In this document: in pieces, positions 39,193 to 53,958 of the stretch | Layout: the number at the start of each line of letters is the position of its first letter | Numbering within the stretch: position 1 is the stretch's first letter | Origin: Deltaproteobacteria bacterium | Lineage (GTDB): Bacteria; Desulfobacterota; DSM-4660; Desulfatiglandales; HGW-15 | Assembly (NCBI GenBank): GCA_020060215.1 | Contig: JAGVAP010000061.1 | Span: forward strand, 1-64,000 | DNA: 64,000 bases | Direction of reading: 5' to 3' | Notes under the pieces: generated by a model | The model's database searches: none | What the model saw: the letters and a program-made list of their open reading frames with translations, nothing else | What the model was told of the DNA's origin: nothing | Position numbers and translations under genes: made by a program

Positions 39193-40560
39193 ATGGCCAA
39201 GACCATTCTGGTCGTCGATGACGAAGAGAGCATCCTTCAGTCCCTCGAGGGGATCCTGACCGACGAGGGGTTCGAGGTCATCCTCGCGGGGAGCGGCGTT
39301 GCGGCCCTGCAGAAGATGGACGGGCTCCCGGACCTGATCCTGCTCGATATTTGGATGCCCGACATGGACGGCAACGAGACCCTGGTGAAGATCAAGGAGA
39401 TCCACCCCAGGGCACAGGTTATCATGATGTCCGGCCATGCGACCATAGAGACGGCGGTGAAGGCGACGAAGCTGGGGGCCTACGACTTCATCGAAAAGCC
39501 CCTTTCCCTCGAAAAAGTGCTCCTTTCCGTGCAGAATGCCCTCGATCACCGCAGGCTGGAAGAAGAGATCCATCTCCTCAAGGAAAAGGAAAAGAAGAAG
39601 TACCGGATCACGGGAGACAGCGACGCCATCCGGCAACTCAAGGAGCAGATCAGGATTGTGGCCCCCACCAACGCCTGGGTGCTGATCTCGGGGGAAAACG
39701 GCACGGGAAAGGAGCTGGTGGCCCATACCATACACCGCCTGTCCAGGCGCAGCCAGAAACCCTTTGTGGAGGTGAATTGCGCCGCCATCCCCGAAGAGTT
39801 GATCGAGAGCGAACTCTTCGGTCACGAAAAGGGCGCGTTCACGGGCGCCAGCGCCACCAAGAAGGGAAAGTTCGACCAGGCGCACGAGGGGAGCCTCTTC
39901 CTGGACGAGATCGGGGACATGAGCCTGAAGGCCCAGTCCAAGACCCTCCGGATCCTCCAGGAGCAGAAGTTCGAGAGGGTCGGCGGATCCAGGACCATCC
40001 AGGTGGATGTGCGGGTGATTGCGGCCACGAACAAGGACCTGGAAAGCGAGATCGAGAAAGGGAGATTCAGGGACGACCTCTATTTCCGGCTGAACGTGAT
40101 CCCCATCCGGGTTCCCCCGCTGCGCGACCGGGTGGAGGATATTCCAAGCCTCGTCAAAGAGTTCCTGACGGAGTTCTCGCTCCAGATGAACCTGGATTCG
40201 AAGGAATTCAGCAGCGAGTCGCTCGCGCTCCTGAAGCGTTATCACTGGCCGGGGAATGTAAGGGAGCTGAGAAACCTGGTGGAGAGGCTGCTCATCATGA
40301 CGCCCGGACCGGTCATCGAGGCCAAGGACGTTCCGCCGCCCTTCAGTCAGCAGGCCAGGATGGATGAAGAGTACGCGTCGATCTTCATGCCTTCCTCCTA
40401 CAAGGAGGCGAAGGGGAACTTCGAAAGGGCGTTCCTTGCCAGGAAGCTGCGGGAGTTCCACGGCAACATCACGCAAACGGCCGATGCCATCGGGATCGAA
40501 AGGAGCAATCTCCACAAAAAGATCAAGGCATACGGGCTGGAACCGCCTCGATCCCAGTAG
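39193..40560 (+). CDS. NtrX-like sigma-54-dependent response regulator
   Basis: A 455-residue three-domain activator. The receiver (residues 1-120) has phospho-acceptor Asp52 in LLDIWMPDMDG and a KP pair at FIEKPLS. The AAA+ domain has Walker A GENGTGKE, the sigma-54 contact loop GAFTGA and Walker B SLFLDEIGD. The C-terminal Fis-type helix-turn-helix reads ITQTADAIGIERSNLHKKIKAYGLE. GENGTGKE and DIWMP are typical of the NtrX branch. No partner kinase is adjacent. It may act on the sigma-54 promoters seen at 57419 and 62976, but that is only proximity. It converges with engB and overlaps it by 38 bases. Confidence 0.9.
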   Translation: MAKTILVVDDEESILQSLEGILTDEGFEVILAGSGVAALQKMDGLPDLILLDIWMPDMDGNETLVKIKEIHPRAQVIMMSGHATIETAVKATKLGAYDFIEKPLSLEKVLLSVQNALDHRRLEEEIHLLKEKEKKKYRITGDSDAIRQLKEQIRIVAPTNAWVLISGENGTGKELVAHTIHRLSRRSQKPFVEVNCAAIPEELIESELFGHEKGAFTGASATKKGKFDQAHEGSLFLDEIGDMSLKAQSKTLRILQEQKFERVGGSRTIQVDVRVIAATNKDLESEIEKGRFRDDLYFRLNVIPIRVPPLRDRVEDIPSLVKEFLTEFSLQMNLDSKEFSSESLALLKRYHWPGNVRELRNLVERLLIMTPGPVIEAKDVPPPFSQQARMDEEYASIFMPSSYKEAKGNFERAFLARKLREFHGNITQTADAIGIERSNLHKKIKAYGLEPPRSQ

Positions 40561-46696: not shown

Positions 46697-46829
46697 AACC
46701 GGCCAGCGCCGCGGCGGGCGGCTGGGCTGAACAGGATCGCTCGAGGATCCGGGCATTGATGTTTTTGCGTTGTCTCCGACAGGGACGATCCCGTATGATC
46801 GTTCAAACCGGCAAAAAAGGAGTGGAACC

Positions 46830-47951
46830 GTGGCACTGAAAGAGCGGATCAGGGAAAAGGCATTGGAACTGGGGTTCGAAGACGCGGGTTTCACCGGCGT
46901 GGAGCCGCTGGACCTGTACGTCCGGGAGATCGAGTCCAGGCCGGAGAAGATGTACGCGTGGGTGCAGACCGAACGCTTCAACGTCCGTCGAGGTGCCGAG
47001 TTCGGCCGAAAACATCCCTGGGCCGGATCACTGCTGGTCCTGATCCGAAACTACCACCGGCGGGCCTTCCCGCCGCAGTTGATCGGGACCATCGGCCGCT
47101 GCTACCAGGTGGATGAGCGCAAGGAACAGGGGACCGAGCACAGGCGCTTGACCGATTTTTTCGCTTTTCTAAAGAGCGAGGGCATCCGTTTCTGGTTCGA
47201 AGGGGAACTGCCCGCCCGCATGTCTGCGGCCCGCGCCGGTCTTGTGACCTACGGTAAGAACTGCTTCGTCTATGCGCGGAACAGCATGCTGGGCTCCTCG
47301 TGGCTTGAGAGCATCCCGCTGATCCTGGACGCGGAGATCGAGCCGGATCGGCCGTCCATCGAGCTGGGCTGCCCCGAGTGGTGCCAAAACGCCTGCATCG
47401 CCGCCTGCCCTACCCATGCCCTGTATGGGCCGCTCAAGATGAACCCCCTCCTCTGCATCGCCTTCAACACCTACCATGCAGAAGGCATGACCCCGGTGAA
47501 GCTGCGGGAGCCCATGGGGACCTGGGTGTACGGATGCGACCGCTGCCAGCAGGTCTGCCCGCGCAACCAGCCGTGGATGCAGCAGTCCCTCCCGGAGAAC
47601 CCTTCCCTCATGGCACGGGCGCCCGACTTTGCCCTGGCCAGGCTCCTTACGATGGACGAAGATCATTACCTAGGCAAGGTCTGGCCCCTGGCGTTCTATA
47701 TCTCCCGAAAGGAGATCTGGAGATGGCAGATGAACGCGGCGCGGGCCCTGGGAAACCTCGGCGACCGCAACCATGTCCCGGTCCTCCTCGAGTCCCTGGC
47801 CCACAGCCCTTACGAAGAAGTGCGGGCCATGGCTGCCTGGGCGCTGGGTCGGCTGGGCGGCGCGCCGGCGCGGAAAGGGCTTGAGGCCGGAAGGGAGCGG
47901 GAGTCAGGCCTGGTCAAGGAGGAGATCGAATCGGCCTTGTCCCGTCTCTGA
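46830..47951 (+). CDS. QueG-like double-cluster Fe-S protein with HEAT repeats
   Basis: A 373-residue homologue of epoxyqueuosine reductase, the corrinoid/4Fe-4S relative of RdhA that ends queuosine synthesis. The N-terminal domain carries the YGKNC and GSSW segments; the first ferredoxin motif is CPEWCQNACIAACP, a C-x3-C-x3-C-x3-C pattern instead of the usual C-x2-C-x2-C-x3-C; the second cluster ends GCDRCQQVCPRNQPW. A C-terminal HEAT-repeat segment (residues 300-373) is as in QueG. The GTG at 46830 follows aaggag; the in-frame upstream extension from 46770 is not conserved. Altered cysteine spacing makes true QueG function uncertain. Confidence 0.75.
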   Translation: MALKERIREKALELGFEDAGFTGVEPLDLYVREIESRPEKMYAWVQTERFNVRRGAEFGRKHPWAGSLLVLIRNYHRRAFPPQLIGTIGRCYQVDERKEQGTEHRRLTDFFAFLKSEGIRFWFEGELPARMSAARAGLVTYGKNCFVYARNSMLGSSWLESIPLILDAEIEPDRPSIELGCPEWCQNACIAACPTHALYGPLKMNPLLCIAFNTYHAEGMTPVKLREPMGTWVYGCDRCQQVCPRNQPWMQQSLPENPSLMARAPDFALARLLTMDEDHYLGKVWPLAFYISRKEIWRWQMNAARALGNLGDRNHVPVLLESLAHSPYEEVRAMAAWALGRLGGAPARKGLEAGRERESGLVKEEIESALSRL

Positions 47952-48318: not shown

Positions 48319-51300
48319 CTAGTTCACGCGCAAGTTTTGAATGTAATCTGATAAGAAATCTATCCGAAGGAATACAGCCCCAAAATCTTTGGGGGGGAAT
48401 CTAGTCCACCAGTAAGTCAAACGGCTCACGTAAATTGTTTCTACTCTAGGGTGCGCCTTTGATTCCATTGGCCATCCCAGAGCATTTGCGATCTCAAAGA
48501 GGTGCATCTGCAAATAGTCTCGCCTTTTGTTAATCTGCTCAAAGTGACCGTTGTCCATCCCGGGCTTTCCAAAAATCGTCTCCCTGAGTCTCTTCGCATC
48601 TTTTAGACAATGTACAGGAAGCAGATCCTTGCACTCAATGTTAAGAACTACCTTCCTATCGGGGCAGAATGCTAAGACGTCATAATCTCCAAGCTCTTTT
48701 GGATGCGCGTTTTTCGGTTTGAGTTTGTGAAGTCTAAGGTTCTTCCTTGCATGAGGAGTGTATCTCAAGACTATCTCCAAAGCCTTGTCAGCCAAGGAAT
48801 CCTCTATGAGCTTCTTTTCACTTCTCAACACTCCTTCTATGGATTTAGATTCAAGGTCCGTAGGCAGCATTCCTCTAGTAACAGCCCCGGACCATATAAT
48901 CCCTGCTCTCCTTGTGGAATAAGGACCCCAATGATATCTCCTCCCTATTCGTATCAGAGGTCTTATGTTGTACCTAGAGAATCTCTTCCTGTATTCCCAT
49001 ACCGGCAAGTCGAAACAAGGTGTATCTTGGCCTAAAACGCGCAAAACCTCATCCCTCTTCAGAGTCAGAAAATTAATTACCGATTCGACCACTTTATGGG
49101 TAATGCCCGGGACCTTGTCTATACAACTTTTCCCTATTTGGTTACTTGTTGCAGAATAGCTCGGGCTTTCTGTGATTCCGTTTAGCGATGACGGCCAAAA
49201 AGTAAGAATCTGAAGAACACTTATCATCTCTGTAAAGCTGAACCCCAGATCCTTCTTAGCGGCATAGTCTAATTCCAACAGAAAATCATCCGCTGGTCTA
49301 GGCGACTTTACTCTGTCCTCCCGCCGACCACTTGTCCCTAGTTCAATACTTGCCATCTCATGAGAGAACGCTTTTTCATCCTCTTCTATTCCTCGGTCAT
49401 ACACAACTTCAACCAGGTAATCTCGATTCAACTTCATGCCAACAGAGAATAACTCGTAATGCAAGTTATCACTTGCGCTATAAAAAACATGCAACCAGTC
49501 AATCAAGGCAATCAGGTACTGGAATTGGTCTTTCCCGAGTACCTCTTTCCCTCTTGGTTGAAGCTGAACAAATTTCTCGATTAAGTATCTATAGTTTTTG
49601 TGTTTTCTAAGGAATTCATTGTGTTCTCCTGCATACCTAATCTCGGGCTCATAATCTACTTCATGAGTTATCGCGTTCTGAAGGGTATAACAACTTCGTT
49701 CATACTCGTCATTAAGAGCGTCAATCCGGGCCAGCAAAAATGGAACATCATTTCCAAAGTCGTGACGGCCAACCTCATGATCTATTTCAGAAACTATCCC
49801 ATCTCTTAGGACATCCAGAATTCCCTTTGCGTCTTCAAGTTCATAGGCAGTCTCCTCTTTTAGGCCGAGTTCTCTTGCAATTTCAGCAACCCGTTTCTTA
49901 GCCTGTTTGAAATGTTTTGGCTCAGGCACAAAAGGACTTATCAGTTCCGGAAATGCGGCAAATTTATCCGTGATGAAAAGCTTAAACCTAGGCTTACCAG
50001 CCCTTGTCTTTTCCAACTTCTCTCTGATTGAACCAAGTTGTGAATCAGGAGCTACTTCGTTCAACTGTTCTATGACTTCCAACAGTATATCAACGTCGAA
50101 GGAGCGATCATCAGCCTCTAAGAGTGCTTTTGAGACTCTTTCATCGTCATAAACAATACGTACGGCATGTTCACCAAGACCTGGAAAGCCAATGTCGCTG
50201 CGCCAAAGAGTTGTGATTTTGCACAAGTGAGAGAGATGTTCAAACCTGTCATTATTCGCCACGATAGAAAGAGGAAACACATTCACATGAAGTCTATCAT
50301 AGCGTTTGAAGAAAAGGTGCTTCTCGATGATTGAAATTCTCTGAGACATTGAGTCTTCTAAGCATTCCATCAGGAGGTTTGATATATTTCCTCGGGGATA
50401 ATCCATTTCATGAAATGGTGCGGTTATGGTCACACAAGTGGAGCCAATCTTGCAGAAGAGGACGGCTCCGAGATAACCCCTCGCGATTAATCTTGTTCGT
50501 GTCTCCGTCTCTTTTTCAATCCTCCAAGCTCGTGGGTGATCAAACGATCCAGCCTCGGGGAACAACTTCCAAAAACTAGATAGAGTTTTGAACCTCCTAC
50601 TCGTTCCCCAGTGTGGATCAAGCGAGATAAACGTAGGCTGAATAGCTCCGCTAATGAGGACTCCCTCAGAATCCTTGAATGAAGCGAACATGTCCAACAT
50701 GCTTAAAAACGAATGAGTATGGCCTGACAATCCATCAAAGTATTCGAGAAAATCTGCAAAGTCATCATATTGATCCATCTCATCTATGATGCCCAAGAAT
50801 GCATCGAGGAACATGAGTCGACCAGGCGTGGATTTGGGCATTCGAATAGGTCCTAATTCGGTTGAAACTTGAGGAACCACAATAATCAGTTCAGGCTTAA
50901 GCATGGCTTTCCCAGACTCAGAGCGAAACTGCACATTTTGCCTATCAATATGCATAGCGAGTGTAATAGGTTGGGATGAAGCCAATAAGATGGCCTTCTT
51001 CAGGTCCTGTGAATTCCTTTTGATTTCTTGCTCAGTTGCCTTAGAAGACGCCGAAGGTTGCGTCATAAACAGCATTACCAGCCTGTCTCTCGACACAAAT
51101 GCCACAGGGAACAACGTGTGGTGTGGAACTCCTTTTTTATCTAGTGCGCTTACCAAACGCAGGGCATTGCCTCTCCTCTGGCGCTTTTGAATATACTGAA
51201 ATAGCTCGGCGCCTAATCTAATGGAATATCTAACTCGATCAGGCTCAACGATAGAGTTATACCTCTGGTACATACTGCTCCATTTATCAAATAAAACGGC

Positions 51301-52212
51301 AGAATACCTCCTTGGAAGGATGGGATAATACCTGCAGCCGTCCTTGACAAAAAATGCTCGAAGTAGCGCGCCAGTGAATATCATTTCGCTGAATTTCTCA
51401 TAATTCAGCGAATCTTTGGGATATTTTCCAAGCTCTACGCTGAACTCTATCAAGAATGGTTCAGGAATCATTGCGTGAGGATTGAAGCCTGTGTAGAATA
51501 GTCGCACATTTCGCCAAAAGCCAGCTGGAGGTAGTTCGATGTTCCCTGGCGAAATTTGTAAACTTTCGCTGTTGGGTTGGCAGTTTATCCGAGTGATTAT
51601 CTCCTCCTGCAATCTCAAACAGTATTGGAGTTCAGTCATCGGACTTCTGTTTGAATGTCGCATATATTCATTATCATATGGCCCATAGATCATTTGGAAG
51701 AGCGCCAGGTATTCATTTGTATTGGATAGTTCGCTGCCATAGAACATCTTATAGTTCTTTTCCTCGTGGTGGAACTTCACTTCACCCCAGTCGGGCTCTG
51801 GAACAAAGTCTTCCATTGAGGGAAAGGATGGAACTAGTCGATAAGCCTTATTGAAGAAGGACTTAAAATCACTATAGGTAGTTATAGAGTCCTGTTCGGA
51901 AAACTCATCGGCTCTAATGGTTGCAAAAATTGCAGTGAGGAGTAGGTGCTTAACGGGGCTGGCAATGTTTGGAAGCCAGATGCTTGAAACGAAAAGTGAG
52001 ACTGCAACATCATTGGCGCTATATTCACGAAAAAGCGCGTAAATCGGCTTGATAGACGACCGATACGACTTCCTCATTTCATTTTGCTTCTGTATGAGGA
52101 AATTCTCAAAGGTATTATCCATGTCCTTCATCTTGGCGATGGCGAGAGAGCCGTGTACATTAAACTGATTTTGTAAGAGTGCGATCTCCTCCTCGAAGGT
52201 TCTGTCACCCAC
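48319..52212 (-). CDS. Large uncharacterised protein with C-terminal PD-(D/E)XK nuclease signature
   Basis: A 1297-residue protein I do not recognise. Its C-terminal 150 residues have a PD-(D/E)XK-type signature: D1176-Y-D1178 in ELGDYDVLAF, a 14-residue spacing, then E1193-C-K1195 in VVLNIECKDL, the arrangement of restriction-type nucleases. The first 1000 residues have no signal peptide, no membrane segment, no Walker motif and no recognised helicase or methylase motif; they look mostly helical and mixed. The GTG start at 52212 has a weak aagga site about 12 bases upstream. Base composition is A+T-richer than the flanks, suggesting recent transfer. A 49-residue membrane peptide gene lies 150 bases upstream and a VapBC-like pair 1.2 kb further, a setting that hints at a defence role, which is inference. 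Confidence 0.85.
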   Translation of the reverse strand: MGDRTFEEEIALLQNQFNVHGSLAIAKMKDMDNTFENFLIQKQNEMRKSYRSSIKPIYALFREYSANDVAVSLFVSSIWLPNIASPVKHLLLTAIFATIRADEFSEQDSITTYSDFKSFFNKAYRLVPSFPSMEDFVPEPDWGEVKFHHEEKNYKMFYGSELSNTNEYLALFQMIYGPYDNEYMRHSNRSPMTELQYCLRLQEEIITRINCQPNSESLQISPGNIELPPAGFWRNVRLFYTGFNPHAMIPEPFLIEFSVELGKYPKDSLNYEKFSEMIFTGALLRAFFVKDGCRYYPILPRRYSAVLFDKWSSMYQRYNSIVEPDRVRYSIRLGAELFQYIQKRQRRGNALRLVSALDKKGVPHHTLFPVAFVSRDRLVMLFMTQPSASSKATEQEIKRNSQDLKKAILLASSQPITLAMHIDRQNVQFRSESGKAMLKPELIIVVPQVSTELGPIRMPKSTPGRLMFLDAFLGIIDEMDQYDDFADFLEYFDGLSGHTHSFLSMLDMFASFKDSEGVLISGAIQPTFISLDPHWGTSRRFKTLSSFWKLFPEAGSFDHPRAWRIEKETETRTRLIARGYLGAVLFCKIGSTCVTITAPFHEMDYPRGNISNLLMECLEDSMSQRISIIEKHLFFKRYDRLHVNVFPLSIVANNDRFEHLSHLCKITTLWRSDIGFPGLGEHAVRIVYDDERVSKALLEADDRSFDVDILLEVIEQLNEVAPDSQLGSIREKLEKTRAGKPRFKLFITDKFAAFPELISPFVPEPKHFKQAKKRVAEIARELGLKEETAYELEDAKGILDVLRDGIVSEIDHEVGRHDFGNDVPFLLARIDALNDEYERSCYTLQNAITHEVDYEPEIRYAGEHNEFLRKHKNYRYLIEKFVQLQPRGKEVLGKDQFQYLIALIDWLHVFYSASDNLHYELFSVGMKLNRDYLVEVVYDRGIEEDEKAFSHEMASIELGTSGRREDRVKSPRPADDFLLELDYAAKKDLGFSFTEMISVLQILTFWPSSLNGITESPSYSATSNQIGKSCIDKVPGITHKVVESVINFLTLKRDEVLRVLGQDTPCFDLPVWEYRKRFSRYNIRPLIRIGRRYHWGPYSTRRAGIIWSGAVTRGMLPTDLESKSIEGVLRSEKKLIEDSLADKALEIVLRYTPHARKNLRLHKLKPKNAHPKELGDYDVLAFCPDRKVVLNIECKDLLPVHCLKDAKRLRETIFGKPGMDNGHFEQINKRRDYLQMHLFEIANALGWPMESKAHPRVETIYVSRLTYWWTRFPPKDFGAVFLRIDFLSDYIQNLRVN

Positions 52213-52364: not shown

Positions 52365-52514
52365 CTAGGGCAGGACCCTAGCAGCCGCTAAGAGAATAAA
52401 ATTCGCAATAGCGGTTTCTTCGGTGAAGAAGCTGCCAACAAAGCAGCTCCATCCGGCCAAAACTAGGGCGACAGGTGCAAACGTTCTCGCCTTGTCGAAC
52501 ACGTCTTTGACCAT
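52365..52514 (-). CDS. 49-residue hydrophobic membrane peptide
   Basis: A small protein with a basic N-terminus (VKDVFDKARTF), one long hydrophobic segment (APVALVLAGWSCFVGSFF) and a second hydrophobic stretch ending in AARVLP. It is too short to place in a known family. The ATG at 52514 has a very strong ribosome site, aaaggag 8 bases upstream, which argues it is a real gene. It lies 150 bases upstream of the large nuclease-like gene on the same strand; they may be co-transcribed. Toxin, anchor or unrelated small protein cannot be distinguished. Confidence 0.55.
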   Translation of the reverse strand: MVKDVFDKARTFAPVALVLAGWSCFVGSFFTEETAIANFILLAAARVLP

Positions 52515-53371
52515 AGCAGTCACTCCTTTCCACCAGGAAGGTTTCAAGTTCCGGCTGCTAAGGCTGCCCTGCTCCGCACTCTGGCGTCGTGCCCTAGATC
52601 CTCCATCTTACTCTGGCACTGATCAATCCACGCGCACAACGTTTGAATTCATGATTCAGGATATCTTTTACTGCCGCAAGAAATCCAGAAAGCCACGTGC
52701 GCAAAGGCCCAGTTCTCATCCGAGAAACTGAGCCTTTGCTATCCTCTCAATCCCCTTCATGTCAGAACCTCTGTTTTGAGGTTTCTCTGAAACTTTGTTT
52801 TGTCAAAAGCTGGAATAACCTAGACCTGTCATAGGGTTATGTCAAGGTTTAATGTCGAAAAAGGGATTCTGGGGATGATGGACTTTCTGTGACCGGATCT
52901 TGAGAGACTTGGGCAAGCTGTATCCTTCACTCCCTGATCACTGAGGTTATCCCTCTTATTCTTCATCTGGAGATCCTACTGGCCGAACATCCTTGGAGTG
53001 CATAGATCTGCTCTCTGTACGTAAAAAAGCAGAGGGAGTCGAAATGGCCCTGGGTATCTTGGATATCCTTCTTCTACCACAGAATATCCGCCCGTCCGGG
53101 AAATCTCGAGTATGTTTGAAATACCCACGCTTTTGGGAGGAGGATTCTTGTTCATTCGCAGAGTGTTCGAACAGGGGATCACATCAGCACGGTGCTTTCG
53201 AAGCAGTTCGTCCGTTCGGCCATCTGTGCAAGGCATGGCGGCCGAGGACGGCAGAATCGCCCCGTTTCCGTCCCCGATCAAACCGAGCAGGGAATCAAAA
53301 GGTGTCTATTGTCTCACGGCAAAGGTGGAAGAGCGTGATCAGGAGGGCCTCGCCGGAACCGAGGTCTTCAC
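52515..53371. other. 857-base intergenic region without a supported gene
   Basis: Several short frames are open but none has a convincing ribosome site or recognisable sequence. It holds a 17-base-pair imperfect hairpin (52701-52739, gcaaaggc...gcctttgc) without a T-tract. Confidence 0.45.
52701..52739. repeat. Imperfect 17-base-pair hairpin
   Basis: GCAAAGGCCCAGTTCTC pairs with GAGAAACTGAGCCTTTGC through a CATCC-containing loop, with one mismatch and one bulge. No T-tract follows, so a processed stem or regulatory element is as likely as a terminator. Confidence 0.45.
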
Positions 53372-53722
53372 TTATTCCGGCACGCGCCAACGGAGGCCCT
53401 GGAACCTTGCGTAGTCGCGGTCGAGTGTGATCCATTCACAGCCCGACTCCATGGCCAGGGCAGCGAACCATGCGTCAGGCACCATGTTGCCACGGGCGTC
53501 CGCCTCGGCGCAAAGTCGGGCGAAAGATCTCCCAATGCCGCTCGGCTTCACGAAGACCTTCGGATGAGTAGTGACGCGGATGACGCCGCTCAATACCTGC
53601 GGAGCCATGCCGTAGCGGCTATCTCCATTAACCACACCATCGAGCCAGGAACGGCATCTTTCATGCTCGGATGAATCCGACCTAAAGGCATGCACGAGGA
53701 TGTTGCCGTCGGGGAGGATCAC
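53372..53722 (-). CDS. PIN-domain toxin VapC-like, apparently shortened
   Basis: A 116-residue PIN-fold protein. The first acidic residue is Asp5 (ILPDGN) and the later ones are in VPDAWFAALA and LDRDYARF, arranged as in VapC RNases. Relatives of this type are about 135-145 residues; the part between THPKVFVKPSG and FARLCAEADARGN seems about 25 residues short, as if an internal in-frame segment were lost. A Gly (QVLSGVIRV) stands where many VapC proteins have a Glu. The start overlaps the antitoxin stop by four bases. Active toxin status is uncertain. Confidence 0.75.
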   Translation of the reverse strand: MILPDGNILVHAFRSDSSEHERCRSWLDGVVNGDSRYGMAPQVLSGVIRVTTHPKVFVKPSGIGRSFARLCAEADARGNMVPDAWFAALAMESGCEWITLDRDYARFQGLRWRVPE

Positions 53723-53958
53723 GACCCTTTCATGGCCTCCTCCAAATCACTGGACCGGTTCAGGTCGACCCCTGGAAGGACGCCACCCGTGGCCTTGGAC
53801 ACAGGCAGATCAACGCGCCCCCGTCGACCCGGTTTCGGCTTGGCCACAACGAGCTTCAGGGCGTCTTCGATCAGCGAGGTCAAGGTACGCCCTTCCTCAG
53901 CCGCTCGTTTTTTCGCGCGCCGGAGGAGCTCATCCTCTATCCTGATAGTAGTTCTCAT
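53719..53958 (-). CDS. Ribbon-helix-helix antitoxin VapB-like
   Basis: A 79-residue DNA-binding protein. The first 45 residues form a ribbon-helix-helix (RTTIRIEDELLRRAKKRAAEEGRTL, then SLIEDALKLV); the C-terminal tail (VDLPVSKATGGVLPGVDLNRSSDL) probably threads into the VapC active site. It precedes the toxin with a four-base overlap, the classical order. Upstream at 53966-53994 is a promoter with an inverted repeat that could be its own operator. Confidence 0.82.
   Translation of the reverse strand: MRTTIRIEDELLRRAKKRAAEEGRTLTSLIEDALKLVVAKPKPGRRGRVDLPVSKATGGVLPGVDLNRSSDLEEAMKGS

Follow-up and report, generated by a model that had tools for sequence, protein, structure and literature searches.

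The gene and its C-terminal domain

The window analysed here, the whole stretch of 64,000 nucleotides at positions 1 to 64,000 of contig JAGVAP010000061.1 (assembly GCA_020060215.1, a Deltaproteobacteria bacterium), carries on its minus strand a very long gene (48319..52212). Based on the list of open reading frames (ORFs), its homologues, and profile and fold comparisons, its product of 1297 amino acids (aa) belongs to a superfamily around the defence protein Upx. The gene is one open frame without internal stop and starts with GTG. Because the first ~45 residues are little conserved in our alignment of 48 homologues, this start is only putative. The content of guanine plus cytosine (GC) is 43.8% compared to 59.4% in the rest of the window, and when windows of equal length are moved along the sequence in steps of 100, a value this low is reached in only one of 602.

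A PD-(D/E)XK nuclease domain is predicted at the C-terminus (residues ~1120-1290; 48343..48855, minus strand). Its putative catalytic residues are D1178 (codon 48679..48681, minus strand) and E1193 and K1195 of the E1193-C-K1195 motif (codons 48628..48636, minus strand). Together with G1175, K1204, D1205, and R1230 these residues are identical in all 48 aligned sequences, query included. In the structural model, D1178 is found on one strand, E1193 on the next, and K1195 one residue past that strand, and the elements follow the order alpha-beta-beta-beta-alpha-beta, so that the core of the PD-(D/E)XK superfamily is present in the model. In the fold search, this domain resembles Can2, Card1, and Cdn1, which are defence nucleases activated by a signal. 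However, the window protein has no ligand-sensing domain recognised by Pfam, and its architecture is otherwise different from theirs.

Relation to Upx

Among characterised proteins, Upx (NCBIfam NF042954; PADLOC PDLC02221; PDB 9WUF) is nearest both by profile and by fold. It is catalogued as anti-phage and was reportedly named by Gao et al. 2020. Direct model matches are short. The NCBIfam Upx model reaches 20.4 bits within residues 1154-1197 only, compared to a curated cut-off of 1900, and the PADLOC Upx model 17.5 bits over ~44 residues; these are the only models in these libraries that the query matches. Because the score is far under the cut-off of NF042954, strict family membership does not apply and we do not file the protein as Upx. 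Of the 33 members in the family alignment A2, 28 are matched by the NCBIfam and 26 by the PADLOC Upx model at E <= 1.

For the profile comparison, the Upx side consisted of four proteins found with the NCBIfam model in 295 genomes of one order, one of them scoring over the cut-off and three below. The one above the cut-off is very close to 9WUF (2797 bits, 1272 of 1272 residues), which the fold library lists under the title 'Cryo-EM structure of Upx' and whose molecule name is 'Restriction endonuclease'. With hhalign, the A2 profile aligns to these four proteins with a probability of 99.5 and an E-value of 3.8e-23 over 1108 collinear columns at 16% identity, compared to 0.9% for the reversed Upx alignment, 0.1% after shuffling of its columns, and 0.1-0.3% for three unrelated large families. 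D1178, E1193, and K1195 line up with the D and the E-C-K of Upx at the same place in the protein, motifs around S914-D915 and D1068-P1085 are common to both, and the fold of the whole protein matches 9WUF. The window protein is therefore related to Upx over its full length. The two are alike in length (1272 and 1297 aa), in whole-length fold, in the C-terminal GD-x-D...ECK with equal spacing, and in the upstream D-x-x-x-W...RPL and SD-x-x-x-(Y/F) motifs. They differ in that the identity is only 12-16% and in that the N-terminal half carries different conserved motifs.

A survey table places Upx under nucleic-acid degradation, citing Gao et al. 2020 (PMC10855318), and a passage on Pseudomonas locates it almost exclusively in one hotspot of PAGI-1 islands, in genomes carrying those islands (PMC12629846). 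Searches of the literature, both for the name Upx and with generic words, revealed no paper on the mechanism of Upx and no description of the family of the window protein.

The N-terminal part

Within the N-terminal ~1000 residues there is probably a second PD-(D/E)XK-like fold (residues ~326-446; 50875..51237, minus strand), as judged from the model, the fold search, and the alignment columns. Its best matches outside Upx are N.BspD6I, R.BspD6I, and FokI, and NucC is also resembled by the N-terminal fold. N.BspD6I, the R.BspD6I small subunit, and FokI belong to the PD-(D/E)XK class. In contrast to these, the fold of the window protein has no D...(D/E)xK residues: strands 368-374 and 377-383 show no conserved acid or ExK in the columns of the family alignment. 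Therefore, the second fold is predicted to be inactive. Pfam, in a copy that did not include PF28173.1, finds no domain in the 1297 residues and hence no known target-recognition domain. One homologue, P0033, bears the precomputed Pfam label PF28173.1.

Spread of the family

A protein search retrieved 124 homologues at E <= 1e-3, and the identity to the query in the alignment of 48 is 25-59%. Among the best 120 of the 124, the only name given, where the sources give one, is 'hypothetical protein'; a housekeeping role was thus considered and rejected. When GTDB genomes were scanned, relatives were encoded at 103 places, of which 80 were kept, representing 75 distinct loci, and the family ORF was identified by profile in 71 of these. 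The bins in which relatives turn up represent many phyla, and two carry an archaeal label. As judged from sequence, the family is a sister family to Upx that is unnamed in the libraries searched, and it forms a broad branch.

In a quick tree of 57 of the 71 locus proteins and the window protein (14 were dropped as split or short), the window gene groups with one Planctomycetota and one Micrarchaeota-labelled bin (SH-aLRT 99), and then with Chloroflexota and Actinomycetota (98). The Pseudomonadota require four changes on this tree compared to a shuffled mean of 13.3. Many rows are of unusual composition. The pattern fits horizontal transfer without proving it, and the bins may include stray contigs. 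Low GC and patchy spread are both computed results, and the window gene has probably been acquired horizontally. An Alphaproteobacteria-labelled bin (L008, isolate OFTM68) and a Scalindua-labelled bin (L009, OFTM1) contain similar family genes with end branches of 0.14 and 0.13, which reflects either a recent transfer or a binning error.

An earlier note, made by a model from the letters of the window, had described a single giant frame, A+T-richer than its surroundings, with a PD-(D/E)XK C-terminus, and all of this is borne out by the data above. Its statement that the remaining ~1000 residues match nothing familiar to it does not hold, because they match Upx by profile and fold. It had also named two findings that would speak against its reading, a close housekeeping homologue and a predicted fold without a nuclease core. 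The first did not appear by name among the best homologues, and the model contains the core.

Other genes in the window

Downstream of and convergent with the family gene lies a flanking host gene for an epoxyqueuosine-reductase-like (QueG-like) protein with HEAT repeats (46770..47951, plus strand), which is outside the low-GC stretch. Several of its named relatives are Deltaproteobacteria or Thermodesulfobacteriota, and the closest one with an organism name is 77% identical, which suggests that the host is probably desulfobacterial. The window also contains HisG and RlmN genes. Upstream of the family gene there is a 60-aa ORF with a hydrophobic stretch (52365..52547, minus strand), and 1.2 kb away a VapC-like PIN toxin (53372..53722, minus strand; PF01850, E 4.6e-9, 37.4 bits at a cut-off of 23.6) together with a VapB-like antitoxin (53719..53958, minus strand; PF09957, E 3.5e-5, 24.0 bits at a cut-off of 23.4). 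Thus, the toxin-antitoxin pair that the earlier note had seen nearby is present and VapBC-like. Its small membrane peptide corresponds to the 60-aa ORF, which has no Pfam match and is at most a putative gene. No support was found for either the VapBC-like pair or the 60-aa ORF as a partner of the 1297-aa gene. Inspection of the ORFs between 46.8 and 55.0 kb by eye revealed no methyltransferase, nor did the Pfam scan of six of these neighbours, and no STAND gene was spotted next to the family gene in the ORF list of the window.

Concerning repeats, the search gave a 16-nucleotide direct pair and two imperfect inverted pairs (22 and 15 nucleotides), none of which obviously frames the 1297-aa gene. 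Four relatives carrying a QueG-like gene of 55-71% identity have no island-adjoining gene in common with the window. When its 202 ORFs of at least 90 aa were compared to these four, a single ORF was shared (39193-40560, in L102), apart from frames of QueG and, in L099, matches of a generic ABC-ATPase kind.

Neighbours and partners of the relatives

In the 69 loci scanned, the two nearest ORFs of at least 90 aa per side within 4 kb (239 proteins, in two batches of 133 and 106) were compared to PADLOC and Pfam; the figures are from the best 25 of 288, 229, 142, and 98 matching families. Among the PADLOC matches listed are GajA (3 members), GajB (3), REase_I (2), SoFic (3), E1-E2 (2), Avs1b (2), and LmuA (4), and also broad models such as mad3 (5), which may be unspecific. 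In addition, eight seed proteins were used to place defence genes among 950 neighbours of the 71 loci. They located GajA in L058 and L071, HsdR in L006, L012, and L055, a type IIG enzyme in L005, a Dpd/BREX-like helicase in L020, and a STAND protein with a partner in seven loci. Thus, at least 14 of the 71 loci have defence genes within 4 kb, and with no more than eight seeds this number is a minimum. In L012 (8780-17183) the family gene is located between a gene that by eye is HsdS-like and an HsdR gene, a setting that looks like a type I restriction operon. Gabija is given as present in more than 15% of genomes in the abstract of PMC10781630. If a genome has ~4000 genes, chance alone would, as a rough yardstick, place Gabija next to the family gene in ~0.01 of 69 loci, compared to at least two cases that were seen.

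A large partner gene recurs beside the family gene in ten proteobacterial loci, encoding a STAND protein in seven and a 1248-aa protein in three. In two Escherichia coli loci at ssrA/intA (L085, 16001-25660; L086, 12001-21660) a Upx-like protein of 1260 aa, a NACHT protein of 1475 aa, and a 482-aa protein without Pfam match are encoded in a tight trio. Seven of the 71 genome-scan loci have this type of STAND gene and its partner next to the family gene, and in L018 the homologue of the NACHT protein has a weak N-terminal match to LmuA. The trio, which our literature searches did not find described, is possibly an undescribed defence system. The gene for the 1248-aa protein immediately precedes the family gene, with both on one strand, in E. 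coli Eco_24-2013 (L084, 16212-23750), L029, L070, and L073, and the L029 copy of the protein has no Pfam match. Two types of query were tried on 5426 complete E. coli genomes, of which one has one family type and ten have the other, two of the ten looking like one strain sequenced twice. Integrase genes adjoin all three E. coli loci opened; one of these loci lies next to the gsp cluster and the other two beside intA at ssrA.

The survey of neighbours that the earlier note had called for thus turned up defence genes, and these together with the relation to Upx agree with its anti-phage or restriction system. Because of the partner genes in the proteobacterial loci, its 'one-gene' part appears to apply to the window, but not throughout the family.

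In viral contigs, 29 pattern matches were checked and no relative is encoded in any of them. With the Serratia relative P0119 as query there was no match in 50,697 phage records and one partial match in 72,556 plasmid records, the window protein itself had none in the same plasmid records, and the best hit in a viral fold library had an E-value of 0.05. On the viral contigs, the phage search with P0119, and the fold library, a viral origin was rejected. On the Lactococcus plasmid pFI430 (L079, 4924-7602), an 892-aa hypothetical protein encoded downstream of an IS981 copy matches the C-terminal two thirds of the family profile with 146 bits and represents a diverged or shortened relative.

Discussion

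We infer, with a probability of about 0.8, that the window gene, which was probably acquired horizontally, encodes an anti-phage nuclease. It would belong to the Upx superfamily as a member of a sister family without a name in the library copies searched. Recognition or gating and cutting would then both reside in one polypeptide. The C-terminal domain with D1178, E1193, and K1195 would use metal ions to cleave nucleic acid, DNA being the most likely substrate, whereas the preceding ~1000 residues, probably including the inactive second fold, would bind the target or trigger and might restrain the nuclease until infection.

Several observations weigh against this interpretation. The identity to Upx is low and the direct hidden Markov model matches cover about the C-terminal third only. 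The superposition of the whole model on Upx is loose (root-mean-square deviation 7.3 A with VIA; TM 0.55 and 9.8 A with Foldseek), so that the domain arrangement may differ. Some of the neighbours are in wrong frames, because they were called as longest ORFs, and the neighbour scans were run without a background control. Among the six Pfam-scanned neighbours in the window, only the VapBC-like pair has a defence flavour, an empty insertion site could not be demonstrated in the four QueG-carrying relatives, and the literature searches found neither phage assays nor activity data for the family.

Alternatively, the protein could act as a classical or type IV restriction enzyme, which itself recognises a DNA sequence or modification and cuts. 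The molecule name of 9WUF, the resemblance of the second fold to N.BspD6I, R.BspD6I, and FokI, and the setting in L012 would fit. However, restriction genes were placed within 4 kb by the seeds in only four of the 71 loci (L005, L006, L012, and L055), the protein has no Pfam domain, and no methyltransferase accompanies the window gene in the range inspected, although a methyltransferase encoded at another place in the genome may serve it. We therefore regard this narrower version of the anti-phage nuclease as rather unlikely. A comparable degree of doubt applies to an abortive-infection nuclease, which infection would unleash on the DNA or RNA of the host so that the cell dies before phage release. 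The likeness to Can2, Card1, Cdn1, and NucC and the STAND/NACHT genes beside seven relatives are consistent with it, but Pfam recognises no ligand-sensing domain and the window gene has no visible STAND neighbour. Since both are compatible with most of the proposed function and are partly finer versions of it, the odds do not sum to one. It is quite improbable that the nuclease serves a mobile element in transposition, plasmid maintenance, or conflict between elements. The low GC, the integrases at the E. coli copies, and the Lactococcus plasmid relative point in this direction, but the results for the viral contigs, the phage records (searched with the Serratia relative), and the plasmid records and the anti-phage listing of Upx argue otherwise.

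With this family, Upx extends beyond its single named family and becomes a superfamily found across bins of many phyla. Scans based on defence catalogues would miss such genes, because the window protein matches the models weakly and over ~44 residues only. The comparison reveals residues held across the superfamily, suggests a dead nuclease fold at the centre of the large N-terminal part, and draws attention to natural versions in E. coli. Tentatively, and with less than even odds, the Upx superfamily may be a broad class of defence nucleases with two PD-(D/E)XK folds, a dead target reader and a live cutter. The window protein would represent a wide unnamed branch of it, and Proteobacteria including E. 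coli would combine a member, a STAND/NACHT protein, and a protein of ~480 aa in a three-gene immune system.
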